64,000 nt of DNA from Terriglobia bacterium (GTDB lineage Bacteria > Acidobacteriota > Terriglobia > Terriglobales > Acidobacteriaceae): NCBI GenBank assembly GCA_020072585.1, contig JAIQGL010000004.1, positions 124,001-188,000 on the forward strand, given 5' to 3'. Of the stretch, positions 2,660 to 19,965 are shown piece after piece (the stretch's first letter is position 1; each line of letters opens with the position of its first letter). A program made the position numbers and the translations under genes. The notes below the pieces were generated by a model that had not been told where the DNA came from, searched no databases, and worked only from the letters and a program-made list of their open reading frames with translations.

Positions 2660-3808
2660 TCATCCGATGTTCAGCCGCTCCACTATTTTGCTCAGCTCCA
2701 GCACTTGTAGGTTAGGCGGACACCCCTTCCAGTTGTGCCGCCAGCAGACAATCAAATCGCATTTCTCGGGATCATGCCCGTGTTGTTTGAACGCGCGGCT
2801 TTCATATTCAAATTCAATACGCACGCGCTGCCACCGCCCTGGCTGTACTTCCATCCGGGCTTCGCAATCGGGAAAAGCGGATTGCACTGATTCCACAATA
2901 AAACCCAACTGCCAGGCCACCATGCCAAAAAGCAGGATCACTCCCATCTCGTTCACCGGTTCATGTGCCAGTCCCGGCAACTGTGTCCGCGCGCCTAACA
3001 GCGGGCGATCATCCAGCACTCGCCGTGGAAAACACGCGCCAGTGATCCATTGCAAGGCGGAGGGTGCCAGCTCGGCCACAAACACAGCCAGCATCGTCGC
3101 GGTAACACTTTTCTTGCCGATAAGAGGCGGTGGCAGAGGCCGTGCAATTGCTTTAGTCTGCTCATCCTGCCGCGTCTCTCCGCTCTCGTCTGGCTTGCGC
3201 GTATTCACTGCTGCCGCTCCTCTGCCCTGGGCTTCGTAAGCCAACCTCGCAGCTTCTCTCCTCTTCGGCATTCCTTTGCTTGCGCCCCAGGTTGGTATCG
3301 GCCCGTGTTGGATTTTTTCCAGCACATCCGTCCAATCGCCCCTCAGTCCACCCGCAGCCACAAACCTGCAAAACTCTGCTGGAACTGCTGACCATTTTTG
3401 AACACGCCTTGATAAGCAAGCGATCGAATAGCTTCCTTCTTGAAAATATTCTTTTTCTGAAGGCACACCGCCCACCCTGCGCACCACATTCCCCCAGTCC
3501 TCCATCAGGACAGCCATTTCTATTGTCTTTCCACTCGGGTTTGGCATGAGTCCGGCAGCGCTTAACGCAATACGATAAGTCTGAAAACAGCGCGCCACTC
3601 TATGCCTGGTAATGCCGCTCAGCTCGCTGAATTCTCTCTTGCTGGGTGTATGACCCAGTTTGCGCGCTGCCTTTTGCAGCTCGGAAATAATCATTTCTTT
3701 GGTAATTGCTTTTTCGGTGACCGCTTTGTAGATGACTGGTCTTTGGATGACTGGTTTTTTGGCGATACGGCTGTTTTTAACAACTCGGTGGGCGTTGATA
3801 CGTGGCAT
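2660..3808 (-). CDS. HNH-repeat protein with PD-(D/E)XK-like C-terminus (copy 1)
   Basis: A 382-residue protein with no assigned function. Residues about 1-30 contain a pentad repeat (IAKKP, VIQRP, VIYKA, VTEKA, ITKEM). Two 'homing endonuclease associated repeat' (HNH_repeat) modules follow, recognised from the pattern LGHTPSKREF...GITRHRV and its second copy. The C-terminal 120 residues hold FPDCEA, RIEFEYESR and CDLIVCWRHNW, which resemble a PD-(D/E)XK/Vsr-like nuclease core (inference). The start is the ATG at 3808, because AAAGG lies just upstream; the frame stays open to 3871. A paralog at 18373-19329 shares all blocks. Both have the same repeat family on their 5' side. DNA binding and cleavage are likely but unproven. 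Confidence 0.7.
   Translation of the reverse strand: MPRINAHRVVKNSRIAKKPVIQRPVIYKAVTEKAITKEMIISELQKAARKLGHTPSKREFSELSGITRHRVARCFQTYRIALSAAGLMPNPSGKTIEMAVLMEDWGNVVRRVGGVPSEKEYFQEGSYSIACLSRRVQKWSAVPAEFCRFVAAGGLRGDWTDVLEKIQHGPIPTWGASKGMPKRREAARLAYEAQGRGAAAVNTRKPDESGETRQDEQTKAIARPLPPPLIGKKSVTATMLAVFVAELAPSALQWITGACFPRRVLDDRPLLGARTQLPGLAHEPVNEMGVILLFGMVAWQLGFIVESVQSAFPDCEARMEVQPGRWQRVRIEFEYESRAFKQHGHDPEKCDLIVCWRHNWKGCPPNLQVLELSKIVERLNIG
3728..3772. repeat. 15-bp tandem repeat inside the copy-1 nuclease gene
   Basis: Three clear 15-bp units (GATGACTGGTCTTTG-type) start at about 3728, 3743 and 3758, with more degenerate units on both sides. They encode the pentad repeat of the overlapping protein and keep its frame. 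Similar 15-bp arrays occur at 18749-18823 and 26715-26774 in other genes. Confidence 0.7.
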
Positions 3809-3984
3809 GAGCAGACCTTTCGCAAAAAGAGAGCGAGTCCTGAAGACAGACACACTTCTCCCGATTTTCAAATCTCATGATTAAAAAATCACGGTTACAG
3901 GTCGCTTGAAACAGCCCGCAGGGCGATGCGGACTAGTCATTTTATAACACGAACAAAATAGGAATGCAACCACTTTTTTTGTTC

Positions 3985-4300
3985 TCCCACATTAGCCCGT
4001 CATCCTGAAGGGCGTGAGCGAGCCCGCGCAGTCAGGGCCCCATTCGCGCCCGATTTTGGCGTGAATGGGCGGACCGGCGGGCGAGTAGCCCTGAAGGTCA
4101 GTTTTTGGATATCGTTGGCAACACTTGCCCAGCCTCTTTCACATCGTCATCCCGACGTACCGTCAGCGAACACGCGTAGTCATCAGCGTGTGAGCAGGCC
4201 GGAGGGACCTTGTGTTTCAATTGTAAGGATCCGATTGTCTGGCGATATACCATTCCTGATTTTGATCAGTGTTATCAGCGTTGATCAGCGGTAGGGTTTT
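3985..4300. repeat. REP-like and GTCATCCCGACG repeat block upstream of nuclease copy 1
   Basis: This is part of a 700-bp gene-free stretch between the nuclease start and the next gene. It contains GTCATCCTGAAGGGCGTGAG at 3990, then a full unit CGTCATCCCGACG ... CAGCGTGTGAGCAGGCCGGAGGGACCTTGTG from 4145, matching the units of the array at 19428-19965. A GATCAGTGTTATCAGCG copy follows at 4263. No protein-coding signal was found here. Confidence 0.75.
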
Positions 4301-4328
4301 TGATCTGCGGCAAGATATTTCTCACACC

Positions 4329-4391
4329 GCTTCACAATCTAAAGCACTCGCTTCACATTCTTCGTTACCGGCTTCACAATCTTCGTTTCTT
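4329..4391. repeat. 21-bp tandem repeat (GCTTCACAATCT...)
   Basis: Three units beginning GCTTCACA at 4329, 4350 and 4371 are spaced exactly 21 bp apart. They lie between the repeat block and the hairpin leader, and no reading frame over them looks like a protein. Confidence 0.65.
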
Positions 4392-4448
4392 CAAAACTTC
4401 GCTCTTTTTTCGTTGCATCTCTCCACCAAATCGATTACATAAAAAGGC

Positions 4449-4489
4449 GGACGCGCCCGGTGTTCGTGCACCGAACGCGCCCTGACCAA
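4449..4489 (+). promoter_or_regulatory. Conserved hairpin leader, copy A
   Basis: A 41-bp element with arms GCGCCCGGTG and CACCGAACGCGCC around a short loop, ending in CCCTGACCAA. Near-identical elements sit at 23508-23548 and, on the minus strand, at 55249-55291. In each case a small gene starting ATG-GCT follows after roughly 20-30 bases. It could be a structured 5' leader or a promoter/operator element; the sequence alone does not decide which. Confidence 0.6.
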
Positions 4490-4516
4490 TAATCACCTTC
4501 TTTGGAAAGGCGACGC

Positions 4517-4732
4517 ATGGCTGACCTCAAGTTTACCAGCCAGGAGAGGCAAGAGGTCTATCGACTGATTGTCCTGCTGAATGGCTCTCTGCAATTCATA
4601 GTGCTGCAGTTGGAAGAATTGTCCACAAACAAGATTCTTAGCTCCAAATACCTCAAGGAAACCCTCGCTCTCACCAAGAAAATTGAAACCCAGATGGACG
4701 CACTGATGGAACCCAAGCGCAAGAAAACCTGA
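4517..4732 (+). CDS. Small charged helical protein of unknown function
   Basis: A 71-residue protein beginning MADLKFTSQERQEV. It is rich in Leu, Glu and Lys with heptad-like spacing, and probably forms helices or a coiled coil; I recognise no family. The start at 4517 is preferred over 4502 because GGAAAGG lies 6 bases upstream and the other two leader-linked genes also begin ATG-GCT. It follows hairpin leader copy A and ends at a strong terminator, forming a compact one-gene cassette. The lysine-rich tail (PKRKKT) would suit nucleic-acid or protein contacts, but that is speculation. Confidence 0.65.
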   Translation: MADLKFTSQERQEVYRLIVLLNGSLQFIVLQLEELSTNKILSSKYLKETLALTKKIETQMDALMEPKRKKT

Positions 4733-4755
4733 CCCCACTCACACGCAAAAACAAG

Positions 4756-4777
4756 ACCCGCCGAAGGCGGGTTTTTT
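4756..4777 (+). terminator. Rho-independent terminator after the small gene
   Basis: A perfect 7-bp stem ACCCGCC/GGCGGGT with a GAA loop, followed by TTTTTT. Confidence 0.85.
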
Positions 4778-4786
4778 CGTTTATCG

Positions 4787-5050
4787 CTCCGCTGGCGCTA
4801 CGCGATGGCCCTGCGGCAGCAAGGAATTGTTCTTTCCCATCGTCGGACGGCATGAGTAAACTCATGCCCTGTTACGCAACGTCACCCAAAAGAGCATTCA
4901 TTGCGCCATGCGTTTTGAAACCGATTTTTTTACACGGTTGAACCGTTCGAAACGGCCAGACGTTACGGCAATAGCATTCGCTACTTCCCCATTCGCAACC
5001 AATCTACTCAAGGGCCACCACACGTAACAGGGTATGAGTTTACTCGTACC
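4787..5050. repeat. Left REP pair (BIME) flanking the RAYT gene
   Basis: Within the gene-free stretch 4783-5061. It holds a GC-rich element CGCTCCGCTGGCGCTACGCG at 4787, a perfect palindrome at 4849-4868 (GGCATGAGT-AA-ACTCATGCC) followed by CCTGTTACG, and an inverted partner with CACGTAACAGGGTATGAG and hairpin 5031-5050. The same set recurs on the other side of the transposase gene at 5579-5880, as expected for REP elements mobilised by a RAYT. Confidence 0.8.
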
Positions 5051-5061
5051 GTCCGCCGCCC

Positions 5062-5550
5062 CTATTTCCCGGCTTTAGCCGCTGCGGCCTTCTGCTTCTT
5101 CAAATACGTTGAACAATACGGATACTCTTCAGCTGACCGCGCCAGCCCTGCCTTCACCGGATTCTCGTCAATATAATTTTGATGCTGGATGAAACTGGCC
5201 TCAGTCAGCACCTGCACTTCAGAAAAGCCCTTCTGCCATATCTCCCAGGGGTATCCAAGTTCCTTCTTCGCACGAAAAGAAAAATTCCCTTTCATCATTT
5301 GCACTGCCTTCTCAATGCTCATCTCCGGCCCAAGGCTGAGCAGGACATGAACATGGTTCGGCATCACCACAAAGTCGTGGACCTTGAACTTCTTCGCTCG
5401 CATATAGGAACGTAGAACGTCGATGAAGAGATGGGCCATCCGCTCCGTCTGCAAAACAGCCACGCCACGGCTGGTTCTGGACGTTACAAAGAATGTGCGG
5501 ATGCTGTTGCGGGCAGAATCAAGACTTGCATTGCGTGATGGTCGTGCCAT
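5062..5550 (-). CDS. REP-associated tyrosine transposase (RAYT, Y1/IS200-like)
   Basis: A 162-residue protein of the Y1 transposase (HUH) superfamily. The metal-binding HUH motif is visible as PNHVHVLL at about residue 63-70. The catalytic tyrosine lies in NYIDENPVKAGL at about residue 126-137, a hallmark of the TnpA_REP group, so all catalytic residues are present. RAYTs nick single-stranded REP hairpins and are usually single-copy 'domesticated' relatives of IS200 transposases. The gene is bracketed by two inverted REP pairs (4787-5050 and 5579-5880), giving a complete REP-RAYT unit. A TATAAT sits only about 15 bases before the ATG, so the message may be nearly leaderless. Family assignment is confident; current activity is unknown. 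Confidence 0.9.
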   Translation of the reverse strand: MARPSRNASLDSARNSIRTFFVTSRTSRGVAVLQTERMAHLFIDVLRSYMRAKKFKVHDFVVMPNHVHVLLSLGPEMSIEKAVQMMKGNFSFRAKKELGYPWEIWQKGFSEVQVLTEASFIQHQNYIDENPVKAGLARSAEEYPYCSTYLKKQKAAAAKAGK

Positions 5551-5578
5551 GGCAGGGCGAAATTATAACTGCAGATTT

Positions 5579-5880
5579 ATCGCTCCGCTGGCGCTGCGCG
5601 ATGGGCCTGCGGCGCAAGGAAATTGTTCTTTTCCATCGTTGGGCGGCACGAGTAAACTCATGCCCTGTTACGTAACGTCGCCCCAAAGAGCATAATTGCG
5701 CCAACCCTTGAAAAAACCGATTTTCCTTTTGGAGGCAATGCGACTGCCCTCATTTCCGTCAATCCCACAACGCGCTCAAGGGCCACCACACGTAACAGGG
5801 TACGACTTCAGTCGTGCCGTAAAGAACAAAGAAATCCTTCCTCGCTGCCGCAGGCCCGCGCGCAGCGCAGCGGAGCGAAC
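5579..5880. repeat. Right REP pair (BIME) flanking the RAYT gene
   Basis: This is the counterpart of the left pair. Elements are CGCTCCGCTGGCGCTGCGCG at 5580, hairpin 5645-5664, an inverted hairpin at 5799-5818 (GGTACGACT-TC-AGTCGTGCC), and the inverted GC-rich end GCAGCGCAGCGGAGCG at about 5864-5879. CCTGTTACG and CGTAACAGG form the inverted junction. It fills the spacer between the RAYT and Mrr genes; nothing coding is seen there. Confidence 0.8.
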
Positions 5881-5905
5881 ATGCTAATTGGTTCAGTACA
5901 TGCAT

Positions 5906-6790
5906 TCATTCCAAGCCCTCAAGGTAATAGACAGGCTTCAACGGCAGAAGCCGCTTGTCGGGTTCCGTTAGTTTTCCGTAATGCTGTACCCAAAGATCAA
6001 ACAGCTTCTCCATATCAAGAAGTGTTATCTTCCGCTTTTCTTGTGTGCGTGCTTCGGATTCAGCAGCTGATGTAAAACCTCCAGTACAAACGAAAATCCC
6101 TACGTCTTGATCGCCTAGCACTGCCAGAAATGACCGCAAACCGCCGACATCCACTGAACTTGCCTGGCGCTTCACTTGGACCTTAATTCTGGGATTGGTA
6201 GCACCCAAAGGATCGGTGTGCGCAAGAATGTCGATGCCTTTGTCCGGACCGGGCGGCGCCTCCCATGAAACGTGATAGCCCATGGCCTTGAGCAATGCCG
6301 CAACTAGTGATTGAAAAACATACGGCTGGATATTATTGAGGTAGTTAGCAATCTCCTCCCATGCGCGCTCTTCTGCTTCATCCAAGGCTGCTGTAGCACT
6401 GGCAGCTACGGTCTCTTCGTCTTCGCCAGCATCTTCTGGTTGCCCAGCCTTCCATTGCCTATAAAGTTCGCTGGCTCTCCTCGCTAATTCCTCTGGGTCA
6501 GTAAAATTTTTGCAGGCGGCTTTACCGTCTTCGGTAAGTGTCCAACGTCCTTTGTTCTTGATCATCCAGCCAGCTTTGACTGGTGCAATTGTTGCAAACC
6601 GCGCCGTCTTTTCAAAGCGCCTTATGCCTGGATGTTTCGGATAGTCACTCTTCTCGAATTCGCTAAGCGTGAGTGTGTGCTCCAATTTAGCAAGCACGTC
6701 CTTCGCTCGCATACCTTCTGGATGTTGCAAAAGGACTTCGAATACCGCTCTTATGATCTCTCCAACTCTTTTGCGAGTTATCTCTGCCAT
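5906..6790 (-). CDS. mrr: Mrr-type restriction endonuclease
   Basis: A 294-residue Mrr-family protein. Residues 1-95 form a winged-helix Mrr N-terminal domain, followed by an acidic linker. The C-terminal catalytic domain contains GPDKGIDIL and IKVQVKRQ, the D...QxK arrangement of Mrr-type PD-(D/E)XK nucleases. E. coli Mrr cuts modified DNA; the specificity of this one is unknown. AGGAAG lies just before the ATG. It is downstream of, and 19 bp from, the DUF695-RraB gene on the same strand, so the two are probably co-transcribed. Its neighbour on the other side is the RAYT unit, consistent with an accessory region. It is full length with no lesion seen. Confidence 0.88.
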   Translation of the reverse strand: MAEITRKRVGEIIRAVFEVLLQHPEGMRAKDVLAKLEHTLTLSEFEKSDYPKHPGIRRFEKTARFATIAPVKAGWMIKNKGRWTLTEDGKAACKNFTDPEELARRASELYRQWKAGQPEDAGEDEETVAASATAALDEAEERAWEEIANYLNNIQPYVFQSLVAALLKAMGYHVSWEAPPGPDKGIDILAHTDPLGATNPRIKVQVKRQASSVDVGGLRSFLAVLGDQDVGIFVCTGGFTSAAESEARTQEKRKITLLDMEKLFDLWVQHYGKLTEPDKRLLPLKPVYYLEGLE

Positions 6791-6809
6791 GCTCTTCCTG
6801 TTCTCTCTT

Positions 6810-7568
6810 TCAGCTTTTTACCATTACCTGAGCTTCCCATCCGTCATACTCGGCTCCGAACTGTTTGGCCAATCGAAAAAGTTCCAGCACGGCTTCGTCA
6901 ATCTTGGCCGGCGTCACACTCTGGTCGCGTGTAATCTGAAGGCTGTATGGGCACTCCCGCGTTAAATCTTCGGATTCGTCCTCGATTGTGTAACCCAACG
7001 GCAGGACTTTTTCACCAAAGACCTTACGGTCATTGTTGGTTTTGAAGTAGATCCAATGATGAACATCGCGTACTGATTCAAGAGTGTCGCCTCGCCGCAT
7101 CAAAATCTCGAGAACATCCATATTCTTGATGCGCTCCATGCTTTCCTCTGATGGGTAGAGTACAGTGCGGTATTGATTCCAGTCCGGTTCATGCTGCGTT
7201 CCGAAATCAAATTTATATTTTTTGAAATTGCTCATCACAGAGCGAACGCTTGTATCGAACCCGCGCGCGCTCGAACCATAAAAATAGAATTCTCGATGAC
7301 CATCTGTCGTAATTCGTCCTGCCTCCACTGTTTGACATATTGATGCGAGACGTTTTGACAGCTCATCTTCTATTGAGCTAATCGTCTCGAACTCAATTTG
7401 GTCGGAGAGCCCGTCTGCCCTGGGATGCTGCAGGTACACCCACACCCAAAGCAGCCATGGTTTACTTTCAATCGGTACTTCTTCGTTCAGGCCAAGGTTA
7501 AGCGCGATAGACGCGAGCTTATCGTTCACGTTGCAAAAATAATTCTTCCAGTTTTCTTTCATATTCAC
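6810..7568 (-). CDS. DUF695 / RraB-like two-domain protein
   Basis: A 252-residue protein with two recognisable parts. The N-terminal half matches DUF695 (WLLWVWVYLQHP, TDGHREFYFYGS). The C-terminal half, from about residue 140, matches the RraB (RNase E inhibitor B) fold (MRRGDTLESVRDVHHWIYF, then AEYDGWEAQV at the end). E. coli RraB binds RNase E; whether this homolog does so in a non-proteobacterium is unknown. It is the first gene of an apparent two-gene operon with mrr. The start could be M1 or M3; the ORF start is kept because no strong Shine-Dalgarno decides between them. Confidence 0.8.
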   Translation of the reverse strand: MNMKENWKNYFCNVNDKLASIALNLGLNEEVPIESKPWLLWVWVYLQHPRADGLSDQIEFETISSIEDELSKRLASICQTVEAGRITTDGHREFYFYGSSARGFDTSVRSVMSNFKKYKFDFGTQHEPDWNQYRTVLYPSEESMERIKNMDVLEILMRRGDTLESVRDVHHWIYFKTNNDRKVFGEKVLPLGYTIEDESEDLTRECPYSLQITRDQSVTPAKIDEAVLELFRLAKQFGAEYDGWEAQVMVKS

Positions 7569-7623
7569 TGTCGAGCGCCTGATTTTTATAGATATTTTCT
7601 CTCTGTGACGAACCTTGCGGGTA

Positions 7624-8562
7624 CTACTTCCCCATCAACCCATTGATCTCCGCATACGGCACAGCGCCTTCCGTCAGGGCCGTGTACGTTCCTGACGTTT
7701 TGGCTTCGTCGGCGATGCGGCGGAGCAGGCCCATCGCCGCCCGATGAGGACCGGAGCCGTAGCTCACGCGCTTGACGCCCAGCTTGGCCAACTCAGGGAT
7801 CGACGGAACGCCGGGGCCGGCCAGAATATTCAATGGGCCATCCGGATGCTGGGCTTCCTGATGAACGCCGCGCAGAGAGTCGACGACGGTCTGGATATGC
7901 TCCGGCTTGCGCAGGCCGGGAACAAAGATGCAGTCAGCGCCGGCCTGCCCGTTAACTTTTTGAAGATAGGCCTTGCCCCGTTCGAGCGTATTGCGCAGAG
8001 CTTCTTCAGGCTGGACGCCGGCTTGCCAGTAGGCGTCCACGCGGGCGTTGATGACGAGATGGATTCCCTCACGCTGAGCGGCGCGGCGCGCGGCCTGGAT
8101 ACGCTCAACCTGTTCCGCCACCGGATAGAGCGGCCCAAAATGTTCCTGTCCGGGCAGGGCATCTTCAAGGTTCACGCCCACGGCCCCGGCAGCGATGATC
8201 TGCGTGATGGAGGTCTCAAGGCCCTTGAGGTCTGCGGCAAAGCCGGCTTCAATATCGGCCGTAACGGGCACCTGGACGGCGCGGGCAATATGCCCGACCA
8301 TCAACAGCATCTCCGGCCAGGGAAGATGCTGGCCATCGGCATAACCCAGGGCGTTGGCGACTGCGGCGCTGCTGGTGGCGATGGCCGGCAGTCCGCAATG
8401 GGCGACCATGGCGGCGCTGGCGGCGTCCCAGGCGTTGATGAGAATAAGAGGGCTGTTGCCGTGGTGAAGCTCCAGCAGGAGAGAGGCTTTTTGCGCTTGC
8501 GTGATGGTTTGCTTTTGCGCGGATGTCATTTTTTGCGGGAGGGTCATGGCAGGTCCAAGCAT
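7624..8562 (-). CDS. Isocitrate lyase / PEP-mutase family enzyme
   Basis: A 312-residue TIM-barrel protein of the ICL/PEPM superfamily, which makes or breaks C-C or P-C bonds next to a carboxylate with Mg2+. Visible blocks are NAWDAASA near the N-terminus, TADIEAGF in place of the usual DADTGYG, VNLEDAL, and NARVDAYW. The enzyme-specific lyase loop (KKCGH-type) is not evident, so neither isocitrate lyase nor methylisocitrate lyase can be assigned. An oxaloacetate- or 2-methylisocitrate-like substrate is possible. M6 at 8547 is an alternative start. It is flanked by the DUF695 gene and a degenerate receiver, all on the minus strand, with no evident functional link. Confidence 0.82.
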   Translation of the reverse strand: MLGPAMTLPQKMTSAQKQTITQAQKASLLLELHHGNSPLILINAWDAASAAMVAHCGLPAIATSSAAVANALGYADGQHLPWPEMLLMVGHIARAVQVPVTADIEAGFAADLKGLETSITQIIAAGAVGVNLEDALPGQEHFGPLYPVAEQVERIQAARRAAQREGIHLVINARVDAYWQAGVQPEEALRNTLERGKAYLQKVNGQAGADCIFVPGLRKPEHIQTVVDSLRGVHQEAQHPDGPLNILAGPGVPSIPELAKLGVKRVSYGSGPHRAAMGLLRRIADEAKTSGTYTALTEGAVPYAEINGLMGK

Positions 8563-8582
8563 AACAGCCCGGCCCAGAGGCG

Positions 8583-8945
8583 TCAGGCCAGACGCGAGCG
8601 GCTCGGCGCGCCCAGCAGGTGGTTGACCGCGCGCACCACTTCTTCAGCACTGGCGGTGGTTTGCATGAGCGCGTCAGCCAGCTCAGTGTTCCTGACACTG
8701 GAGAAATAAATCAGAATGATTTTGGTGGAAGGATTTGCCTGCTTGAGCGCTTGGGCCACCTGATTGCGCTCTGCTTCAGGAACGCTGAAGCCCAGGATGG
8801 CAACATCAAAAACCTCTTGCGCAATGGCCGCTGTGGCGGTCGCCAGTGACTGCGCTACTGTGACTTCATAACCCGAGGCCCGCAACATCTGCTCCCGTTC
8901 CCGCAGCAATTCGGCTATGTAGCCAACCAGAAGCACTCGTGCCAT
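8583..8945 (-). CDS. Degenerate receiver-like protein (no phospho-acceptor Asp)
   Basis: A 120-residue single domain with the alternating beta/alpha pattern of CheY-like receivers (ARVLLVGY at the start, FDVAILGFSVPE at strand 3, IILIYFSS at strand 4). The residues that define an active receiver are replaced: the N-terminal acidic pair reads VGY, and the strand-3 aspartate is a glycine (VAILGF). It therefore cannot be phosphorylated in the usual way. GGGAAG precedes the ATG. The protein at 39693-40079 has the same replacements (VAIVGY), so this is a small family of pseudo-receivers in this genome. The partner is unknown. Confidence 0.72.
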   Translation of the reverse strand: MARVLLVGYIAELLREREQMLRASGYEVTVAQSLATATAAIAQEVFDVAILGFSVPEAERNQVAQALKQANPSTKIILIYFSSVRNTELADALMQTTASAEEVVRAVNHLLGAPSRSRLA

Positions 8946-9365
8946 AGTTCTTCCCTATGATGTCTCGGCGCCAGTCCTATACGGAGGCAATGCGCGAAAA
9001 ACAGCATTTCAGAAAGCAGCGTTTCGCGCAAAGATTCCGTTTGTACGTGCTGCAAATTCGCGCTCGGCCATTTCCAACCGGAACAGCAATGGCGCAACTC
9101 CGCTTCATTTTGTCAGCGCTGGACAAAGAATCGACCAAACCGGAGGGGTCTTCCACGCGACGTGGGACGCCAGTCCGGGCTTCTGCCTGAAAGGGGGCGA
9201 TCAGGACAACGGTATAATTGACTACCGGGGAAACCAGGACCATTGGATCCGGAAAGATCGAATCGAGAGATATATTACTACAGTTATGGATGCCGAATTC
9301 CCAAGGTGTGCTTACAATACAAGGACGCCCTATACTTTTCTGTTTGAAATTCCCTTGGAGCAAAG
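8946..9365. other. Intergenic region, gdhA upstream region
   Basis: 420 bp between the divergent pseudo-receiver and gdhA. Small frames here lack protein-like composition. A TATACT-like -10 stands about 30 bases before the gdhA ATG, with only a weak -35, and TTGGAG serves as its ribosome binding site. No repeat family or RNA gene was recognised. Confidence 0.4.
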
Positions 9366-10631
9366 ATGAAAACCGTATCACTGGAACAGGAGCTGAATCC
9401 CTGGGAAGCCCAGGCAGCTCGCTTTGATTTTGCCGCGCAAAAACTCAACCTGGATGAAGGCCTGTGGAAGATCCTGCGCTATCCGCAGCGTGAAATCATC
9501 GTGCATATCCCCGTTGCCATGGACAACGGAACACTGGAAGTCTTTACCGGCTTCCGGGTACAGCACTCCATTGCCCGCGGGCCAGCCAAAGGCGGGGTCC
9601 GCTACTCGCCCGATGTCACCCTGGACGAAGTGCGCGCCCTCGCCAGTTGGATGACCTGGAAATGCGCCGTGGTCAATATTCCTTTTGGCGGAGCCAAGGG
9701 TGGCATCATCGTCGACCCGAAAAAGCTGAGTCTCTCTGAGCTGGAAAAAATGACTCGCCGCTATACCGCTGAGCTGATTGAATTCCTGGGTCCGGAAAAA
9801 GATGTTCCCGCTCCCGACATGGGCACCAATGAACAGACCATGGCCTGGATGATGGACACCTATTCCATGCACATGCGGCAAACTGTGACGGCCGTGGTCA
9901 CGGGCAAGCCAATCAACATCGGCGGATCAAGAGGCCGGCGTGAAGCCACCGGACGCGGCGTGATGATCAACTGTGACGAAGCTCTCAGAAAATTTGAGAT
10001 GAGCCGCGAATCCACCCGCGTGATCATTCAGGGCTTCGGCAATGTCGGCTCCAACGCGGCCAAGCTAATGGCCGATGGCGGCTACAAAATCGTCGGCATT
10101 GCGGAATACGATGGCGGCCTTTTCAACAAAAATGGAATCAACATTGACAATCTGCTGGAACATCGTGACCGCAACAAAACGATCGTCGGGTTCCCCGGAG
10201 CTGACGCCGCTGACCCCAGGGAATTGCTGCTGGCCGATTGTGAAATTCTGATTCCCGCGGCCACTGAGAACGTCATCACCAGCCAGAACGCGGCGGGCAT
10301 CAAGGCCAGGATCATCTGTGAAGGCGCAAACGGTCCCACCACCGCCGCAGCGGATGAAATCCTGGCCGACAAGAAAGTCTTCATCATTCCTGACATTCTC
10401 GCCAACGCCGGTGGCGTTACTGCTTCTTACTTTGAGTGGGTGCAGGACCGCCAGGGTTATTTCTGGAAGGAATCCGCTGTCAATGAACAACTGGAGTTCA
10501 TCCTGCGTGAGGCCTTTGAGGATGTGGTGCACTTCTCAGACACGCACGGCGTAAACAACCGGATCGCGGCTTACATGCTGGCCATCAGCCGTGTGGCCCA
10601 CACCATCAAGCTGCGCGGCATTTACGCCTAA
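9366..10631 (+). CDS. gdhA: Glutamate dehydrogenase (Glu/Leu/Phe/Val family)
   Basis: A 421-residue enzyme that interconverts 2-oxoglutarate plus ammonium and glutamate with NAD(P)H. The N-terminal domain shows GPAKGGVRY and the substrate/catalytic lysine region [11 protein letters not shown]. The C-terminal Rossmann domain contains [10 protein letters not shown]. Length and motif order fit the hexameric small-subunit GDH class, common in Acidobacteria and Archaea. TTGGAG lies about 6 bases before the ATG. It is monocistronic and ends in a strong terminator at 10660. The glutamine synthetase at 59534 is its functional counterpart in nitrogen assimilation but is not linked. Cofactor preference cannot be read safely. 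Confidence 0.95.
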
Positions 10632-12586: not shown

Positions 12587-13459
12587 TTACTTTTTTTTCG
12601 GTACGATCTTCAACTCATCCGCGGCCAGAATTTTTCTGATCTGATTGCGGGCGTGAATGGACCAGGGGCCAATGGTATCGAGCCGGGAATAAGCCTCCCA
12701 GTGATGCAGGGCTTTGCGGGGCTGGCGGGCTTTTTCAAGAGCGAGCGCAAGATTGTAATGCGCGTCAGCGTAGGTGGGGGCCAGCGAGATGGCGGATTGA
12801 TAAGCTTTGATGGCGTCGGGCAGACGTCCGGTTTCGTCGAGCACGTTGCCCAGATCAAAATAAGCCAGCGCGTAACGGGGATCCACTTCAATCGCTTTGC
12901 GGTAGAAGCGCTCCGCCTGCGGGTAATCATGGCGATTATAAAAAAGCGTGCCTAAATTGATATAAGCGGCGGCGTGCAGCGGATCAAGCTCAACGCACTT
13001 TTTGTAGCTATCAATCGCTTCCGTCTGGGTGCCGGGATCTTCTTCGAGAGCCACACCGCGGGCGAAAAATTCAACTGCCGTTTCCGCGGCGCGCATGGCA
13101 TGGATTTTGTGTGACTCCACCACCTCGCGCTGGTTGAAGTCCATTACGAACTGGCCGGCCAGCGGCTCCATCGCCGAACCCTGATGGCGGAACACGACGC
13201 GAGACTGGCTGGCGAAGGTGCCCATTTCCATTAACGGGTTTTCCATGCCGGCAACCTGGCGCATGGCGCGCAGCGATTCCAGGATCACGGCGGAGCGCAC
13301 CCGTTTGGCACGCAGGTCACGCAGCTTCTTGATTTGCAGGAGGTCAAAAAAGGAATAGGAGTGCGCCGCGGGCAGCAAACCGGCTTTTTCCCAGCCCGCC
13401 AACTGCCGCGCTGTAATGCGAAGGATCCGCAGAACGTCTGATCGATCGTATCTTTCCAC
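12587..13459 (-). CDS. MerR-type HTH regulator fused to TPR repeats
   Basis: A 290-residue protein. Residues 1-75 form a MerR-like winged helix (VLRILRITARQLAGWEKAG, then YSFFDLLQIKKLRDLR). Residues about 150-265 contain at least three TPR units (AAAYINLGTLFYNRHDYPQA, ALAYFDLGNVLDETGRLPDA, ADAHYNLALALEKARQPRKA). It probably binds DNA and a protein partner in the cytoplasm. The start is GTG with AAAGG about 6 bases upstream. The tail is basic (VPKKK). It stands alone between the decayed locus and tRNA-Thr. This fusion is familiar in Acidobacteria; its targets are unknown. Confidence 0.85.
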   Translation of the reverse strand: MERYDRSDVLRILRITARQLAGWEKAGLLPAAHSYSFFDLLQIKKLRDLRAKRVRSAVILESLRAMRQVAGMENPLMEMGTFASQSRVVFRHQGSAMEPLAGQFVMDFNQREVVESHKIHAMRAAETAVEFFARGVALEEDPGTQTEAIDSYKKCVELDPLHAAAYINLGTLFYNRHDYPQAERFYRKAIEVDPRYALAYFDLGNVLDETGRLPDAIKAYQSAISLAPTYADAHYNLALALEKARQPRKALHHWEAYSRLDTIGPWSIHARNQIRKILAADELKIVPKKK

Positions 13460-13722
13460 TGTGGCCTTTGGAAGTACGCGCCTTTTCTTACAGAGCTACA
13501 GAACATTATGCGAAACACCGGGCACAAAAAGCAAGCGCAAAGACCTGCAAAGTGTGGAAAAGTCACCCCTTAAGTCACTCCCTTCCAAACCGCCGGTGCT
13601 TTGTTTTTTCCACTCGACTTCTGTCTTGCGCCTGTGGCAGTGGGCTCGGCGTGCCATAGGTGCAGGACTCACGTAAGGAAAGGAAGACACTAAGGCGGGG
13701 TGGAGCAAAGCGACATAAATAC

Positions 13723-13798
13723 TGGAGCCGACGATCGGACTTGAACCGATGACCTGTCGATTACGAATCGACTGCTCTACCAACTGAGCTACGTCGGC
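13723..13798 (-). tRNA. tRNA-Thr (CGU)
   Basis: The minus strand folds as a cloverleaf of 76 nt with encoded CCA: acceptor GCCGACG/CGTCGGC, D arm GCTC...GAGC, anticodon stem GTCGA/TCGAC around loop TTCGTAA (anticodon CGU), and T arm ATCGG TTCAAGT CCGAT. Confidence 0.96.
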
Positions 13799-13879
13799 CA
13801 GTGAAAGGCTGCCTTTCTATTCTAAGAGAGAGTCATCAGAGCCGTAAAGAGCGTGGCCTGTTTTTACGCGAATCCGGGG

Positions 13880-15748
13880 CTACTCCAAGTCCAGACTCAG
13901 TAAGTCTCCCTGGTTCTCTCCGCTTTTACGATAGCTCACTGTGACGCCATGGTTTTTCAGGGAGCAGGGATTTCCACCCATGGCTTTTACATCGCCCTTG
14001 ATCATGAGAGTTTGGTTTGGCGGCAAATTCAGTCTCCAGTTCTTGCCGCCGGAAGCCACTACGAACACCGGCCGGGAGGAGCATTCCACGGATACAAGTG
14101 TTCCTTTCATGGAAAGAACAGGTCCGGCTCCGCCGGCTGAGGCGGATTTGGCGGGCGAAGTTTCAGCCGGTTCGTTTTTTCCGGAAGTCTCACTTAACCC
14201 AAGCGCGCCGCTTGAGCCATTGCCTTCGCGGACCATTGCATCACGCCCCTGCATGGCGGACTTAAAGTTTTCTATGACCTGAATCTGCTGGCCTGCCCAT
14301 GCCGCAGTCTGGGAATCAGAGCTGTGCTGTAGTTGCTGCAAGACGGGGATGGCGCGGTCAAAATCCTGCGTACGCATGTAAGCGTTGACAAGATTGGCCA
14401 CGAACCCGGTGTTTCTGGGGCTCAGGGCAATGGCTTTATTCAGCGCCTCGATGGCTTTTTCTTTCTCGCCCCTGGCGGAAAGAGTAATGCCGAGCAGGTT
14501 ATAAGCCTCAGCGTAGTCCGGTTCCAGAGCAATTGCGGTAGCCAACTCTTTCCTGATGGTCTCAGTATCCTCCGGAACTCCGCCACCCATGCCGTTGCGG
14601 CTCATCATCATGGCCAGAAGGTAATGCACTTGTGGATCTTTCACGTCCTGAGCCACCGCATGCTTAAAGTATTCGCCCGCCTTGTCCCAATCTCTGGTTT
14701 GCATTGCCTCATAGCCCAGGTCGCGATTGGCGGTGACATTTTCCGGCTGCAGCGCCAGGACCTGCTGCAACTCCGTGATCCCCCGGGCGCGATAGTCGCG
14801 CGAATGGTAATCCAGATCGGCCATGACCGATTTCACATCAATATCGTTCAAGGGACGCGAAGTGAACTGTATGGCGTCAGCTCCTGTGGGCGCAGGCGCG
14901 TGAAGGGACGTGGTCTCGCCCCTGCTGAAATAATCTTCCACAGCTTTCTGCAGGGCTTCCGGTTCCATGCCAAAGCTGCGCCGGATGGCTTCCGGCACCG
15001 GGACATGCTGGTCCTGTGTCATACGGATATAGGCCGAAGTCTGCTTCATCAGGCCTTTGCTCCAGATGAAATGAACCGTCAGCCATGATTGTGCGTAGAA
15101 GGTCGACCGTTGGTCACCCCGGTTGTAGACCTGCGAGTCATGGCCCACGCTCAACAGGTCGACCAGTCTTAGCCAGTGGCCTTGCCGCAGAATTTCCACA
15201 TTCTCCTGTTTCACCAGCCCAAGGACCACTTCTTTTTTGTCGATCTTGAGCGTGGAGCAATACTCGGCAAAGCCTTCGTCAAACCACAGCGGCGAAGGCG
15301 GGAAATTACTGTTGATCAGCAGGTGAGCGTATTCGTGGAAGACCGTTCCCCAGCTGCTGTCCTGGGAAAGGTCCAGCGCAATGTACTGCCGGTCCTGGCT
15401 GGCCCCCGGCGAGCCGTGGCCTCCGTTGCCCAGAAAGAAGCCGGCGAGCTCGACGGGCTTACCTCCGTATAGAGGTGAAAACTGGCGCAACTCTTTACTG
15501 TTACGAAAGGCAACAATCTCGAGCGGCGCCGTATTAACGCTGACCTTGGCGAAAATCGCGCCAAAGCCGGCGCGCATTTGCTCGAATTTGGTGGCGACTT
15601 CACGCGCGCGCTTGTCACCGCCGTCTGTGGCGACGGAAAAATGGGGTGAAGTAACTTCGACCCATTGCTGGTCAGCGCCAACAGCGGAAAAGGCACAGGC
15701 GAAAAGAGACACAAGAAAGAAACTTCGCCGGATCATAGGCACATTCAT
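13880..15748 (-). CDS. Secreted gluzincin-like metalloprotease with TPR domain
   Basis: A 622-residue protein with an N-terminal signal peptide (RRSFFLVSLFACAFSAVGA). The N-terminal half is a peptidase-MA-like domain: the zinc motif HEYAH at about residue 139, followed by WFDEGFAEY about 20 residues later supplying the third ligand. Residues about 310-500 form TPR repeats (NRDLGYEAMQTRDWDKAGEY, EAYNLLGITLSARGEKEKAI). The last 80 residues form a small beta-rich domain. It is predicted to act in the periplasm or be exported. The active-site residues are intact, so proteolysis is likely, though the substrate is unknown. It lies just upstream of tRNA-Thr on the same strand. Confidence 0.85.
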   Translation of the reverse strand: MNVPMIRRSFFLVSLFACAFSAVGADQQWVEVTSPHFSVATDGGDKRAREVATKFEQMRAGFGAIFAKVSVNTAPLEIVAFRNSKELRQFSPLYGGKPVELAGFFLGNGGHGSPGASQDRQYIALDLSQDSSWGTVFHEYAHLLINSNFPPSPLWFDEGFAEYCSTLKIDKKEVVLGLVKQENVEILRQGHWLRLVDLLSVGHDSQVYNRGDQRSTFYAQSWLTVHFIWSKGLMKQTSAYIRMTQDQHVPVPEAIRRSFGMEPEALQKAVEDYFSRGETTSLHAPAPTGADAIQFTSRPLNDIDVKSVMADLDYHSRDYRARGITELQQVLALQPENVTANRDLGYEAMQTRDWDKAGEYFKHAVAQDVKDPQVHYLLAMMMSRNGMGGGVPEDTETIRKELATAIALEPDYAEAYNLLGITLSARGEKEKAIEALNKAIALSPRNTGFVANLVNAYMRTQDFDRAIPVLQQLQHSSDSQTAAWAGQQIQVIENFKSAMQGRDAMVREGNGSSGALGLSETSGKNEPAETSPAKSASAGGAGPVLSMKGTLVSVECSSRPVFVVASGGKNWRLNLPPNQTLMIKGDVKAMGGNPCSLKNHGVTVSYRKSGENQGDLLSLDLE

Positions 15749-15896
15749 AGGGAAACCAAGGTTGGGGGATGGCTAGGAGAGTACCCCGATCTTATCCCCG
15801 TTTGCAACCTATCAACAGCCGATCGAGTCGAAATGCTCAAGCGCCGCACGAATGCGCCCGCAGGCGGTCGCTGCCGGCAATTTCGTAGACGGCTTT

Positions 15897-18050
15897 CTAA
15901 TTTCCTTTCGCCGTCTCCGTTTTTGTATGCGCCGCGCCCATGCCAAGCTGCCATAAGAGGTAGCTCAGTTCGTCAGTAGTGTTTTCAATTTGCTTGCCTG
16001 TAGGTGTGCCGCCGGAATGCCCTGCGGTAGTGTCATAGTGCAGCAGAACCGGACGGTCAGAGCCGGTGGTAGCAGCCTGCATGAGCGCCGTCATCTTGCG
16101 GGCATGGAGAGGCGCCACGCGCGTATCAGAGTCACCGCTGATAAAGAGCACGGAAGGATATTTGGTCCCGGCCTTTACGTGGTGGTAGGGCGAGTAAGCG
16201 TAAATGTACTTAAATTGGTCTGCATTATCAGAAGACCCGTACTCTGGAACCCAATATTTTGCCACGAGAAAGTTCTGGTAGCGGACCATATCCAGGAGCG
16301 GATAGCTGCAGATGACGGCGGCAAACAGGTCAGGTCGCTGTGTAAGCGCCGCGCCTACCAGCAGTCCGCCGTTGCTGCCGCCACGGATAGCCAATCGCGC
16401 CGGCGTGGTGTACTTGTTGTGAATGAGCCACTCAGCCGCAGCGATGAAGTCATCAAACACGTTTTGTTTTTTCTCCATCATGCCGGCATGGTGCCATGCT
16501 TCGCCAAACTCGCCGCCACCACGCAGATTGGCCACGGCAAAAACGCCGCCATTCGCCATCCATGCCGCGGCAAATGAGCTGTAGCCGGGTGACTGGATGA
16601 GGTTGAACCCGCCGTAGCCGGTAAGCAGTGTTGGGTTGTTTCCATCCAGCTTTAGGTTCTTGGCATGGGCCAGGAACATGGGAATTTTTGTTCCGTCTTT
16701 TGAGGTGTACCAGACCTGTTTTACTTCGTATTTAGCGGTGTCAATCGGCACTTTCAGCTCTGCCCAGACGCTCTGCTTGCCGGTGGCAACGTCATAGCGA
16801 TAAATCGTGGGAGGAACATGGAAGGACGTAAACGAAAAGAAAGCTTCACTGGAATCCCAACGTCCACTCAGGCCGGAAACCGAACCAAGAGCAGGCAAAG
16901 GGAGCTCACGCAGAAGTTTGCCTGAGGGCTCCACCAGCTTAACGTGTGGAATTACATTCTGCGTATAGCGTACCGCCAGTTTGCCGCCCACAAGTGAGAC
17001 GCCATCCAAAACGGCATCGCTTTCCGGCACCACCTCGCGCCATTTTTCGATTGCCGGATTTTTCAGATCAACTTCCATCACGCGCCACTTAGGCGCCTTC
17101 CAGTTGGTGCGGACATACATATGGTCACCGGCAATCTGGCCATTGAAGCTTGAAAGCACGTCTTTCACGATCGTGACGATGGGGCCTTGATTCGCCAGGT
17201 CCTGCACGTAGAGTTCCGAGTGGTCTCCAGACGATCCATGCTGCACCCCGATCTGCAAATAGTGATTATCGCGGGTGACGCCGCAGCCGATGATGATTTC
17301 CGGGCCATAGCCCTTGCCAAAGATCTCCGTGTCAGTGGCGCTATCAGTGCCGATCTTGTGGAAGTAGACGCGCGGGCCTGCCTTGGTATCGCGCGTCAGG
17401 TACACGCCGCTCTTGTCATTCAGAATGGAAAAGCCGGAGTAACGCGCTTTGGGAAAAACGTCGGCCAGGTCCTTGTGCGCGTCCACGTCAAAGAGATGCG
17501 GGGTCACTTCATCGGCGCCGCCTTCACGTACGGCATACGCCATGAGAGCTCCGTCCAGGGTAAGGCTTAACAGGTTCACCGTCACGGTGTGCTTGGGGCT
17601 CAGGGGCAGCGGATCAATCAACAGCTCATCCTTGCCTTGCAGCCCCTTACGCATAAAGAGAGAAGACTGGTCCTGATCTGCCTGGCGCTTGCTGAAGAAG
17701 TAGCGGTTGTTCGCGACCATCGGCGCACCCATGGAATCAATTTTCATCAGCGCGCTTACCTGCTGCCGGATGGCTTCCCGTCCGGGCAGCTTTGCCAGCA
17801 TTCCATCAGAGTAGGCGTTCTGCGCGTCAATCCATGCGCGTGTCTCCGGGCTGTTCTGGTCTTCCAGCCAGCGGTAGGGGTCCACGATCTCCGTGCCTTG
17901 CACCATCTCCTTTACTTCATTCACGGTGGTTTTGGGCGGTGCGGCCACCGCGGAAGCGCCATCGTGCGGGTTCTTCAAGGCAACAGAGCCGGCAGACAGA
18001 GCTAGAAGAAAAGAAAGCAGCAACAGGAAGGAGATTTGTTTGCGCGTCAT
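15897..18050 (-). CDS. Prolyl oligopeptidase family serine peptidase (S9A)
   Basis: A 717-residue exported peptidase that cleaves short peptides after proline. A signal peptide follows the ATG at 18050 (MTRKQISFLLLLSFLLALSA); the frame is open 13 codons further, but GAGG lies about 10 bases before 18050, which I prefer. The N-terminal beta-propeller domain includes the family hallmark VDPYRWLED. The C-terminal alpha/beta-hydrolase carries the nucleophile motif GGSNGG, the acid in SGDSDTRVAP, and the histidine in AGHSGG, so the triad is complete. Length fits the family. It is on the same strand as the metalloprotease, 148 bp upstream of it, possibly co-expressed. Confidence 0.93.
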   Translation of the reverse strand: MTRKQISFLLLLSFLLALSAGSVALKNPHDGASAVAAPPKTTVNEVKEMVQGTEIVDPYRWLEDQNSPETRAWIDAQNAYSDGMLAKLPGREAIRQQVSALMKIDSMGAPMVANNRYFFSKRQADQDQSSLFMRKGLQGKDELLIDPLPLSPKHTVTVNLLSLTLDGALMAYAVREGGADEVTPHLFDVDAHKDLADVFPKARYSGFSILNDKSGVYLTRDTKAGPRVYFHKIGTDSATDTEIFGKGYGPEIIIGCGVTRDNHYLQIGVQHGSSGDHSELYVQDLANQGPIVTIVKDVLSSFNGQIAGDHMYVRTNWKAPKWRVMEVDLKNPAIEKWREVVPESDAVLDGVSLVGGKLAVRYTQNVIPHVKLVEPSGKLLRELPLPALGSVSGLSGRWDSSEAFFSFTSFHVPPTIYRYDVATGKQSVWAELKVPIDTAKYEVKQVWYTSKDGTKIPMFLAHAKNLKLDGNNPTLLTGYGGFNLIQSPGYSSFAAAWMANGGVFAVANLRGGGEFGEAWHHAGMMEKKQNVFDDFIAAAEWLIHNKYTTPARLAIRGGSNGGLLVGAALTQRPDLFAAVICSYPLLDMVRYQNFLVAKYWVPEYGSSDNADQFKYIYAYSPYHHVKAGTKYPSVLFISGDSDTRVAPLHARKMTALMQAATTGSDRPVLLHYDTTAGHSGGTPTGKQIENTTDELSYLLWQLGMGAAHTKTETAKGN

Positions 18051-18372
18051 GGATTCATGGACCTCATCGACAAGAATTTTGATGGACAAGTCTTACCTGG
18101 AAATCCGTTGCGGGCACTGCTCGCGATTCTATGCTGCTGGCAAATCCGCGGTCAATCATGCGAATGCTGTAGATCGCCCCAGCTTTTAGATCGTTCATCC
18201 CAGGGGAACGTCAACAACACAAGGATGTCAATTTGAAAATGAAGAGGCTATTTTGGAACTACTAGTTTGGGTAGTGGAAGGAGCGAACACAGCTCGATGA
18301 TTTCTTAGCGATAATTTCCGGGCTGCTCGGAAAATCACGCCAGTCATGACGACAGCTATTTATGTAGCAGGA
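18051..18372. other. Spacer between peptidase and nuclease copy 2
   Basis: About 320 bp. On the plus strand a 35-codon frame at 18082-18189 contains EIRCGHCSRFYAAGK, one CxxC knuckle resembling the start of a Com-like zinc-ribbon protein, but the second knuckle is absent. I treat it as a possible remnant only. Nothing else is recognised. Confidence 0.3.
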
Positions 18373-19329
18373 TTATGCAACCAGGCGGCACAGTTCAATA
18401 ACCTCAAGGTCGCGGGGACATTCCTTCCAGTTGTGCCGCCAGCAGACGATCACGTCGCAGCCCTTGTGGCTGTGGCGATGTTTGCGAAAATTCCGGCTCT
18501 CATATTCAAACTCAATGCGCACACGCTGCCACTTGCCCGGCCGCACCTCGCGCATCGCCTCGCAATCAGGAAAGCCCGGCTGGAAGGAAACAACACGGAA
18601 GCCCAGCGCGTGTGCGAACATGCCAAAAAAGAAAACCACGCCCAGCTCGTTCACCGGCTCATGAGCCAGGCCATCAACGTCAATAGGCGGCCCCGCTACC
18701 GGCCGGTCGCGGAAACAGTTTCTAGACGGCAAGAGCTTTTCATGTTTGTTGGAAAATTGCGTATTGGAAAACGGTTTGTTGGAAAATGGTGTATTGGAAA
18801 ACGCTGTGTTGGAAAACCGCGCCATGGCAGACGTCGAATGCTCCGTCAGGCCGGCGTCAGTCAATCTTTTGCTGTTCGGCTTTCTGCTGCCTCTTGCCTT
18901 GCCGTCCTCTTTTGCTCTTATCAGCTCCAGCACGTCTCTCCATTCCGCTTCAGTACCTGTCTGCCCTGCCAGTTCCTCGAATGCGGCAGGCACGGCCTGC
19001 CATGAGCCATAGCGTTTGATGAAAGGGATCACCGAGTATTTTCCCGAGCGCGCGTACCAGCCTGAGCCCGGAAGCCTTCCCAGTTTTCGGGTCAACTCTG
19101 CCCAGTCCAGCAGTAGATCTGCGGTGCGGATGCGGTGCCCGCTGCCTCTCGGCTCAAGTCCGGCTGCCCGGATCGCCCTGCCCATGTCGCGAAACAACCA
19201 CTTCACCTGGCCGGGGGAAATCCCCTTGCTCTGCTTGAGCTCTGTTCGTGAAGGTGGGCGCTTGAGCTTCTGCGCACACGCCTGGATCGCTGCAATCACC
19301 TTTTCTCGCGTCATCTTTTCTCGCCTCAT
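18373..19329 (-). CDS. HNH-repeat protein with PD-(D/E)XK-like C-terminus (copy 2)
   Basis: A 318-residue paralog of the protein at 2660-3808. It starts at the ATG at 19329, where GAGAGG lies 5 bases upstream; the longer frame to 19470 runs into repeats and is rejected. It has two HNH_repeat modules (LKRPPSRTELKQSKGIS; LGRLPGSGWYARSGKYSV), then a pentad stretch FSNTA-FSNTP-FSNKP-FSNTQ encoded by a 15-bp array. The C-terminal block contains FPDCEA, RIEFEYESR and CDVIVCWRHNW, nearly identical to copy 1. The conserved acidic residues and the E-x-E strand suggest a nuclease core (inference). The 142-bp repeat array starts 99 bp upstream. It is not inserted in any recognisable gene. Confidence 0.7.
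   Translation of the reverse strand: MRREKMTREKVIAAIQACAQKLKRPPSRTELKQSKGISPGQVKWLFRDMGRAIRAAGLEPRGSGHRIRTADLLLDWAELTRKLGRLPGSGWYARSGKYSVIPFIKRYGSWQAVPAAFEELAGQTGTEAEWRDVLELIRAKEDGKARGSRKPNSKRLTDAGLTEHSTSAMARFSNTAFSNTPFSNKPFSNTQFSNKHEKLLPSRNCFRDRPVAGPPIDVDGLAHEPVNELGVVFFFGMFAHALGFRVVSFQPGFPDCEAMREVRPGKWQRVRIEFEYESRNFRKHRHSHKGCDVIVCWRHNWKECPRDLEVIELCRLVA
18749..18823. repeat. 15-bp tandem repeat inside nuclease copy 2
   Basis: Five consecutive 15-bp units begin TTGGAAAA at 18749, 18764, 18779, 18794 and 18809. They encode the FSN pentads of the overlapping protein. The variable seven bases of each unit differ, so the array is not a recent slippage product. Confidence 0.85.
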
Positions 19330-19427
19330 AAAGACCTCTCTGGAATGGGAATTTTTTGGAAGTGAATTTTTGGGTAGTGAGTGAGTTTGAAATAACCGTG
19401 TGAAATCCCGCTGTCTCAATTCAAAAT

Positions 19428-19965
19428 CGTCATCCCGACGTGCCGTAAAGCGAACACGCGCCTTCAACACGGGGCCCCCGGCGCGTGTTTTGCGCGCGAT
19501 GGGGTGATCATCAGCGTGTGAGCAGGCCGGAGGGACCTTGTGTTTGCTCTTTGAATCGTAAGCGTAGTGAGTCAGTTCGATATCGGCAGCAAAACTGACC
19601 GGCTTCTTTCACATCGTCATCCCGACGAGCCGTAAAGCGAACACGCGCTGTCATCAGCGTGTGAGCAGGCCGGAGGGACCTTGTGTCTGTTTTTTGAATC
19701 GTAAGCGTAGTGTTGTCAGTTCGATGTCGGCAGCAAAACGGACCGGCTTCTTCACATCGTCATCCCGACGAGCCGTAAAGCGAACACGCGCTGTCTTCAG
19801 CGTGTGAGCAGGCCGGAGGGACCTTGTGTTTGCTCTTTGAATCGTAAGCGTAATGAGTCAGTTCGATGTCGGCAGCAAACTGACCGGCTTCTTTCACATC
19901 GTCATCCCGACGAGCCGTAAAGCGAACACGCGCTGGGACTCGTTTACGGAACCTCGGGATGACGA
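19428..19965. repeat. 142-bp tandem repeat array
   Basis: Four units begin CGTCATCCCGACG at 19428, 19615, 19758 and 19900 (spacing 187, 143, 142). Each unit carries CGAACACGCG, CAGCGTGTGAGCAGGCC and GGAGGGACCTTGTG, then a spacer ending ACCGGCTTCTTTCACAT. Unit 1 has an extra GC-rich insert and unit 4 is truncated. The array closes with an inverted end, CCTCGGGATGACGA at about 19951, complementary to the unit start. One related unit stands at 4145, upstream of the paralogous nuclease gene. No coding signal was found. Confidence 0.88.

Follow-up and report, generated by a model that had tools for sequence, protein, structure and literature searches.

Predicted nucleases of a lineage-specific Terriglobia family and a structured leader RNA also present in phage sequence

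The predicted nuclease genes and their family

The window analysed here, 64,000 nucleotides (nt) of a Terriglobia bacterium (JAIQGL010000004.1, positions 124,001-188,000, forward strand), carries two minus-strand paralogous genes, W1 and W2 (Table 1). Both lack a leader and belong to a family of free-standing predicted nucleases that is specific to the lineage and maintained; most members of this family in the genome are preceded by a structured RNA that also occurs in phage sequence. A sequence-only reading of the window had described these two genes with their HNH_repeat modules, three motifs in the C-terminal core (FPDCEA, RIEFEYES and CDxIVCWRHNW) and no interruption of a recognisable host gene. 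Open reading frames (ORFs), Pfam and alignment bear out the pair, the motifs are present, and no interrupted host gene is recognisable near either gene in the ORF list of the window. The two proteins are 38% identical over 346 aligned positions and both match HNH_repeat (PF18780) above the curated cut-off (E 8e-14 for W1 and 6.5e-16 for W2), with one stretch passing Pfam in W1 and two in W2. Domain searches recognised neither an HNH domain nor any other nuclease domain with a name in these proteins, and Pfam gave no Y1_Tnp match.

Table 1. Features of the window, in window positions.
Feature	Position	Strand	Basis
W1, predicted nuclease of 382 amino acids; HNH_repeat module(s) at the N-terminus, joined by a long linker to a PD-(D/E)XK-like core at the C-terminus	2660..3808	-	ORF, Pfam, alignment
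HNH_repeat (PF18780) of W1, residues 35-87	3548..3706	-	Pfam
PD-(D/E)XK-like core of W1, FPD...EFE (limits approximate)	2693..3001	-	alignment to modelled W2 core
W2, 318-amino-acid paralog of W1 (start 19329 or 19314)	18373..19329	-	ORF, Pfam, alignment
First HNH_repeat of W2, with a second one after it; two four-helix units in the model	19153..19311	-	Pfam, structure model
PD-(D/E)XK-like core of W2 (limits approximate), invariant PD 249-250 and ExE 268-270	18391..18693	-	alignment, structure model
15-bp minisatellite encoding the FSNT/FSNK linker of W2, on the minus strand	18744..18833		repeat comparison
Single CGTC-type repeat copy, 337 bp upstream of W1	4145..4214	+	repeat comparison, pattern search
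CGTC-type repeat array upstream of W2	19426..19965	+	repeat comparison, pattern search
Repeats flanking the window's RAYT gene (see text)	4780-4897, 5576-5693, 5007-5052, 5775-5820		repeat comparison

In the whole-protein model of W2, the N-terminal part is helical, forms two four-helix units and is modelled with confidence, as is the core; the linker that joins them is disordered. Modelled alone (predicted local distance difference test, pLDDT, 94.9; predicted template modelling score, pTM, 0.87), the core has the predicted order alpha-beta-beta-beta-alpha-beta, which is that of PD-(D/E)XK folds, and its leading Foldseek matches in the PDB were Bax1, Cap4, EcoRV and FokI, all of them PD-(D/E)XK enzymes. 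Since the best of these matches had an E of 0.02 and none fell under 0.001, a PD-(D/E)XK nuclease fold is likely but not proven. The resemblance to this class proposed by the sequence-only reading is therefore supported by prediction, as modelling and comparison returned a nuclease-like core. The core resembles Bax1, the Cap4 nuclease domain and EcoRV in its predicted order, with PD followed by ExE on the next strand. It differs from PD-(D/E)XK nucleases in that the last active-site residue is E and not K (E-x-E rather than E-x-K), though P, D, E and E are invariant, and in having additional invariant HxH and CW..W motifs. BamHI is an example of the ExE variant. Pfam PDDEXK_13 was matched by one of 54 core members (E 0.006), and the whole W2 model had two matches under E 0.001 in BFVD, neither of them informatively named.

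A search with W2 of the window's genome (G000; 6.9 Mb in 74 contigs; L- and C-numbers below denote loci and contigs) gave 46 matching pieces, which correspond to 23 full-length genes, W1 and W2 included, and three fragments that were excluded from the tree and from the terminator count. The paralogs are 39-46% identical to W2, HNH_repeat was found in all 23 (Pfam, E up to 0.01), and none of the 23 aligned sequences departs from P249, D250, E268 and E270 (W2 numbering); P50, D51, E69 and E71 are likewise invariant across a 54-row core alignment. When G000 was compared with 60 relatives, among them the sister species G003, G004 and G006 of the same genus, the family was matched in six of the 61 genomes, namely G000 and five of the eight other genus members (the match in G008 being partial), and in none of the 52 relatives outside the genus. 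An even draw of 247 genomes from the phylum also contained six with a match, each except G000 having a single core-only match. A scan of named-species genomes yielded 119 coding stretches, from which 80 loci were retained; nearly all are in metagenome-assembled genomes (MAGs) and they span Acidobacteria, Planctomycetota, Nitrospirae, Chloroflexi, proteobacteria and others, some genomes having two or three loci. The core is also encoded by two viral contigs. A big expansion, to about 20 copies or more, was seen in this genus only (G000, G004 and G006). The family resembles HNH_repeat proteins in the Pfam matches of all its G000 members and in the two four-helix units of the model, and differs from them in having 23 copies in one genome, none of which was seen in an intron.

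Comparison of flanks placed paralogs of G004, G006 or G003 at the same site as several G000 copies. Flanks and tree agree on positional orthology for L026/L167, L041/L172/L193 and L025/L173/L191; for L031/L188 the tree agrees and the flank matches on one side only. The ratio of nonsynonymous to synonymous substitution rates (dN/dS) was 0.06-0.36 in all 15 close paralog pairs computed between sister species, and these pairs evolve under purifying selection. The presence of selected orthologs in place indicates that the family is neither fresh transposition nor decaying junk.

These data also bear on the idea that the genes are free-standing homing endonucleases, each spreading by cutting the empty allele, with paralogs that have diverged to different sites. 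The Pfam name of HNH_repeat (homing endonuclease associated repeat) points in this direction, as do the scatter of relatives over MAGs of many phyla, the different paralogs that neighbourhoods shared across species can hold, and a core-only relative, L164, which is flanked by other ORFs of a viral contig and encoded on the opposite strand to them. However, orthologs that keep their positions from species to species and evolve under purifying selection are unlike a short-lived homing cycle, no clean empty site was found in the flank comparison, and no interrupted gene was recognised in the window. In addition, Rfam identified no self-splicing intron around the gene in 39 of the 80 named-species loci and one viral locus, or in eight G000 loci, nine shorter cuts and the window; at L141, a group II intron piece lies about 1.5 kb from the gene. 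We regard homing as rather unlikely.

Two further observations concern the family. The flanks of L021 in G000 match two G004 copies, L170 and L178, which suggests recombination between paralogs. The Acido-Lenti-1 RNA (RF01687) was found near several paralogs (L029 7128-7173; L036 7153-7196; L010 7-57, just under the gathering score) and near two relatives from other lineages (L112 2647-2692 and L135 1537-1676).

A conserved leader RNA upstream of the genes and in phage sequence

The upstream regions of 13 of the 23 G000 paralogs have a conserved block in common, located by means of two short motifs. The leader contains a hairpin, P1, whose loop GAGCGGC(G/A) is almost invariant, a variable hairpin and often a GGGNAACCC hairpin, followed by GGCC(T/A)GCAACC and by a stem of greater length. 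Eleven of the 25 leaders collected went into a covariance model, R1, which later recovered the more divergent ones that had been excluded. Counting matches at E up to 0.1, R1 identified 19 sites in G000, 8 in G004 and 13 in G006. Sixteen of the G000 sites precede a paralog by 0.1-3 kb and share its strand, giving a leader to 16 of the 23 paralogs, and the same placement was found for all 8 sites in G004 and 9 of the 13 in G006 (33 of 40 in total, including the leaders on C287 of G006 and C4 of G004, which precede a cut or broken paralog). Of the other seven sites, three are in prophage; the remaining four lie against a contig end, which would hide any gene that follows.

No R1 match was found in G003 or G005, or in G001, G002 and G007, genus members without the nucleases. 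Outside the genus, the best E was 0.07 in 64 loci from the named-species and viral searches, and across 120 genomes of the taxonomic family, under stricter filters, only two had the leader, both from this genus. Three weak matches (E 0.04-0.09), which came from two of the three genomes searched in another family of the same order, were taken as chance. Rfam contained no family that matched the leader at its gathering score, and sub-threshold matches were at chance level only.

Covariation, a measure that related sequences inflate, exceeded that of shuffled alignments both in a plain MAFFT alignment of the leaders (12 double-change cells versus 5.4) and in the model-fitted alignment (71 versus 17.6). 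The leaders have a promoter-like sequence immediately ahead of them. A strict -35/-10 pattern is satisfied in 18 of 50, compared to 0.4 expected from shuffles, and the putative promoter is sigma-70-like in its sequence. In the phage and prophage rows, a TTGAC and a TATAAGAT-like box can be recognised by eye. The P1 pattern alone is weak (25 matches in G000 versus 9 in the control), and the P1-like sites in L210-L227, which reached at best an R1 score of 19.5 bits, were not accepted as leaders. In one of these loci, L213 (3994-4110; G002, which has no nucleases), a promoter-like sequence and a P1-like hairpin (R1 15 bits) were seen by eye ahead of a 109-amino-acid ORF.

The orthologs L031 and L188 encode proteins that are 87% identical and have leaders of clearly different sub-types, suggesting that leaders may be exchanged between copies. 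Among the planctomycete relatives, L123, L127 and L147, and likewise L111 and L125, have a common conserved upstream region of 200-300 nt that is unlike the R1 leader.

In 15 of the 23 G000 genes, a hairpin (GCCACCC..GGGTGGC) followed by a T run begins at a distance of 36-81 nt upstream of the start codon, and this type of intrinsic terminator is present in 13 of the 16 that bear a leader. The scan, which had no shuffle control, flagged 17 of the 23 genes overall, the other two having different hairpins.

The three prophage sites, which precede no paralog, are in G000 (two, C21, L204) and G006 (one, C222, L206). Portal and terminase genes were found at both loci, with a head protease match in addition at L204, and small ORFs of no known function lie between the RNA and the portal and terminase genes. 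In viral sequences, the pattern from P1 to GGCC matched 139 stretches (97 with a short gap and 42 with a long gap). Fourteen viral contigs carry the promoter-like sequence and the RNA in nearly identical surroundings; these comprise 13 short-gap stretches with 6 P1 pairs and L229, which was recognised by eye and by R1. None of the long-gap stretches had more than 4 contiguous P1 pairs, and these were taken as chance. The one viral contig in which gene order was examined, L246, resembles the prophage, and the phage form of the RNA has an additional hairpin before P1. Thus, the RNA is common to phage head and packaging regions and to the nuclease genes.

A compact covarying RNA behind a promoter-like sequence, followed in most leader-bearing G000 genes by a terminator, is also what would be expected of a ligand-sensing riboswitch with the terminator as its expression platform, in which case the nucleases could have a housekeeping role, e.g., in repair. 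Nevertheless, the remaining convincing sites of the RNA accompany head and packaging genes of prophage or viral sequence, not metabolic genes, and the searched genus members that lack the nucleases have no RNA match, making a riboswitch distinctly unlikely. Structured RNA upstream of a nuclease gene is known from IscB omega RNA and HEARO. The leader described here differs from these in that it has no Rfam match, no RuvC or HNH domain was recognised, and no guide-like segment was seen.

The CGTC-type repeat near the genes

The sequence-only reading had linked both genes to one repeat family, with one unit at 4145, 337 bp upstream of W1, and four units from 19428, 99 bp upstream of W2. Both distances and the single unit were confirmed; the array consists of three units, the first with an extra insert, and a partial fourth, and is closed by an inverted copy (19943-19965). 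The repeat begins with CGTC, has palindromic arms and, as single-stranded DNA, folds better than most shuffles (z -1.94). A 33-base pattern from its 5' end, allowing up to 3 mismatches, had 4 matches in the 6.9 Mb versus none for the reversed control, missing the W1 unit because this is one base shorter, and a 27-base 3' pattern had 15 matches versus none for controls, placing the repeat beyond chance.

The same reading had proposed that the protein recognises or spreads the repeat, much as a REP-associated tyrosine transposase (RAYT) does with its repetitive extragenic palindromic sequences (REPs). An 80-base unit matched 49 pieces of G000 at E up to 10, and pieces at E up to 0.08 define at least 33 loci (a lower bound, as 40 of 43 candidates were scored). 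Five of these precede a paralog by no more than 500 bp (W1, W2, L022, L033 and L041), where about 0.4-0.5 would be expected from uniform placement and an assumed intergenic fraction of 12-15%; at E up to 0.002, the numbers are 30 loci and four. Weak copies outside this count were found by local comparison in L042, L044 and L047. The excess over expectation and the copies in L042 and L044, which are loci of family fragments, are in keeping with such a partnership, and so is the report that CGTC-tagged REPs are a super-family without a dedicated transposase (PMC3733652). However, 18 of the 23 paralogs lack the repeat, 28 of the at least 33 loci fall outside the 500 bp upstream of any paralog (for example, a locus 1.2 kb away, on the other side of L032), and only 2 of 38 loci around paralogs of the three sister species have it. 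Furthermore, in L022, L033 and L041 the position of the repeat differs relative to leader and gene, as independent insertions would give. The expectation that homologs would mostly have the repeat nearby did not survive these counts, and the proposed partnership is not supported by them; we consider it highly improbable. Most copies are elsewhere, but relative to uniform placement a mild enrichment near the paralogs remains; the paralogs seem to sit in repeat-rich gaps.

The repeat instead fits a dispersed CGTC-type REP that is not a dedicated partner of the nucleases. It resembles the CGTC-tagged REPs, as far as the available text of PMC3733652 describes them, in its CGTC start, dispersal, palindromic arms and the inverted pair in the array, and differs in its longer interior; Acidobacteria are not among the CGTC-bearing phyla that this text lists. 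The idea that CGTC-type palindromes, which have no known mobilising enzyme, found one here is mostly removed. RAYT/TnpA-REP systems likewise have a gene beside palindromic repeats, but the nucleases are another enzyme class, with no Y1 transposase and no exclusive linkage to the repeat (5 of 23).

The window does contain a true RAYT gene (Y1_Tnp; 5062-5550, minus strand), flanked by its own repeats (Table 1), which are distinct from the CGTC-type repeat. A second RAYT, 59% identical, is located in L021 (7713-8162), where it separates a leader RNA from its nuclease gene. A conserved hairpin-like repeat of 37-42 bp, CGCGCCCGGTG..GCACCGAACGCGCCC..ACCAA, occurs at 4448-4489, 23507-23548 and 55249-55285 (inverted) of the window, two of the three copies standing shortly ahead of a small ORF.

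Proposed gating of the nucleases and the link to phage

We interpret the family as diversified nucleases, most of which, in G000, carry a phage-type leader RNA that would gate their expression, and which would cut invading or competing DNA; we put the chances of this reading at about even. From the architecture of the proteins we infer that the two helical HNH_repeat modules probably read DNA and that the C-terminal PD-(D/E)XK-type core cuts it. Transcription would start at the sigma-70-like promoter and run into the conserved structured RNA, which would act in cis as a leader, allowing RNA polymerase to enter the gene in a certain state only. Antitermination, like that of HK022 put, or attenuation would be the parsimonious mechanism. 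Phage or other mobile DNA is the likely target of nucleases gated in this manner, and conflict between phage and host their probable setting.

Several results weigh against this interpretation. W1 and W2 have no leader, as R1 had no match anywhere in the window, and G003 and G005 have paralogs and no R1 match, which argues against strict linkage. Beyond the inflation of the covariation scores, the plain alignment had no excess of further pair types (15 versus 13.2 shuffled; 91 of 500), and the one leader whose folding energy was tried, L033, was not exceptional (z -1.56). The strict promoter pattern fails in all 15 rows from phage or prophage, and inspection by eye of the prophage stretch that was read revealed no terminator following the RNA. 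In the sister species, terminator flags were found, with no shuffle control, in 4 of 16 (G004), 5 of 14 (G006) and 2 of 5 (G003) full-length genes and several of these are other hairpin types; the terminator is far less regular there, so that the case for attenuation draws mainly on G000. As to the proteins, the fold matches of the core are weak, the whole W2 model has no better PDB matches than unrelated proteins, DsrC among them, at E 0.19 or above, no relative of solved structure was matched significantly by sequence, and PADLOC gave a single weak match, to W2 (E 0.009). Finally, L029 and L171/L192 share a neighbourhood in which the species hold different paralogs in opposite orientation, and such differences look like turnover or movement.

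A more specific form of the gated-nuclease interpretation is that the host genes carry a copy of a phage promoter and leader RNA, silenced by the terminator, and thereby form a trap. The phage factor that drives the head genes through the RNA would, upon infection or induction of a phage, also read into up to 16 host nucleases simultaneously. We give this form a slim chance.

For gating by the leader in general, the nearest comparison is the putRNA of HK022, which is likewise structured and situated close to a phage promoter; adjacent hairpins also stand at the beginning of the phage form described here. HK022 put serves early genes (PMC9378689), whereas the RNA here is located by head and packaging genes, and the likeness is one of placement only. 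In the available portions of the literature on HNH_repeat, related homing enzymes and antitermination combined with defence, and on antitermination RNAs, structured RNAs of Acidobacteria and RAYT/REP elements of Acidobacteria, nothing resembled the family or the RNA.

If the proposed gating is true, the 23 predicted nucleases of G000, most of them preceded by an RNA that is also carried by prophage of the genus, would represent a novel type of regulatory connection between a host and its phage. Whichever reading holds, the leader is a candidate for a new class of structured RNA.

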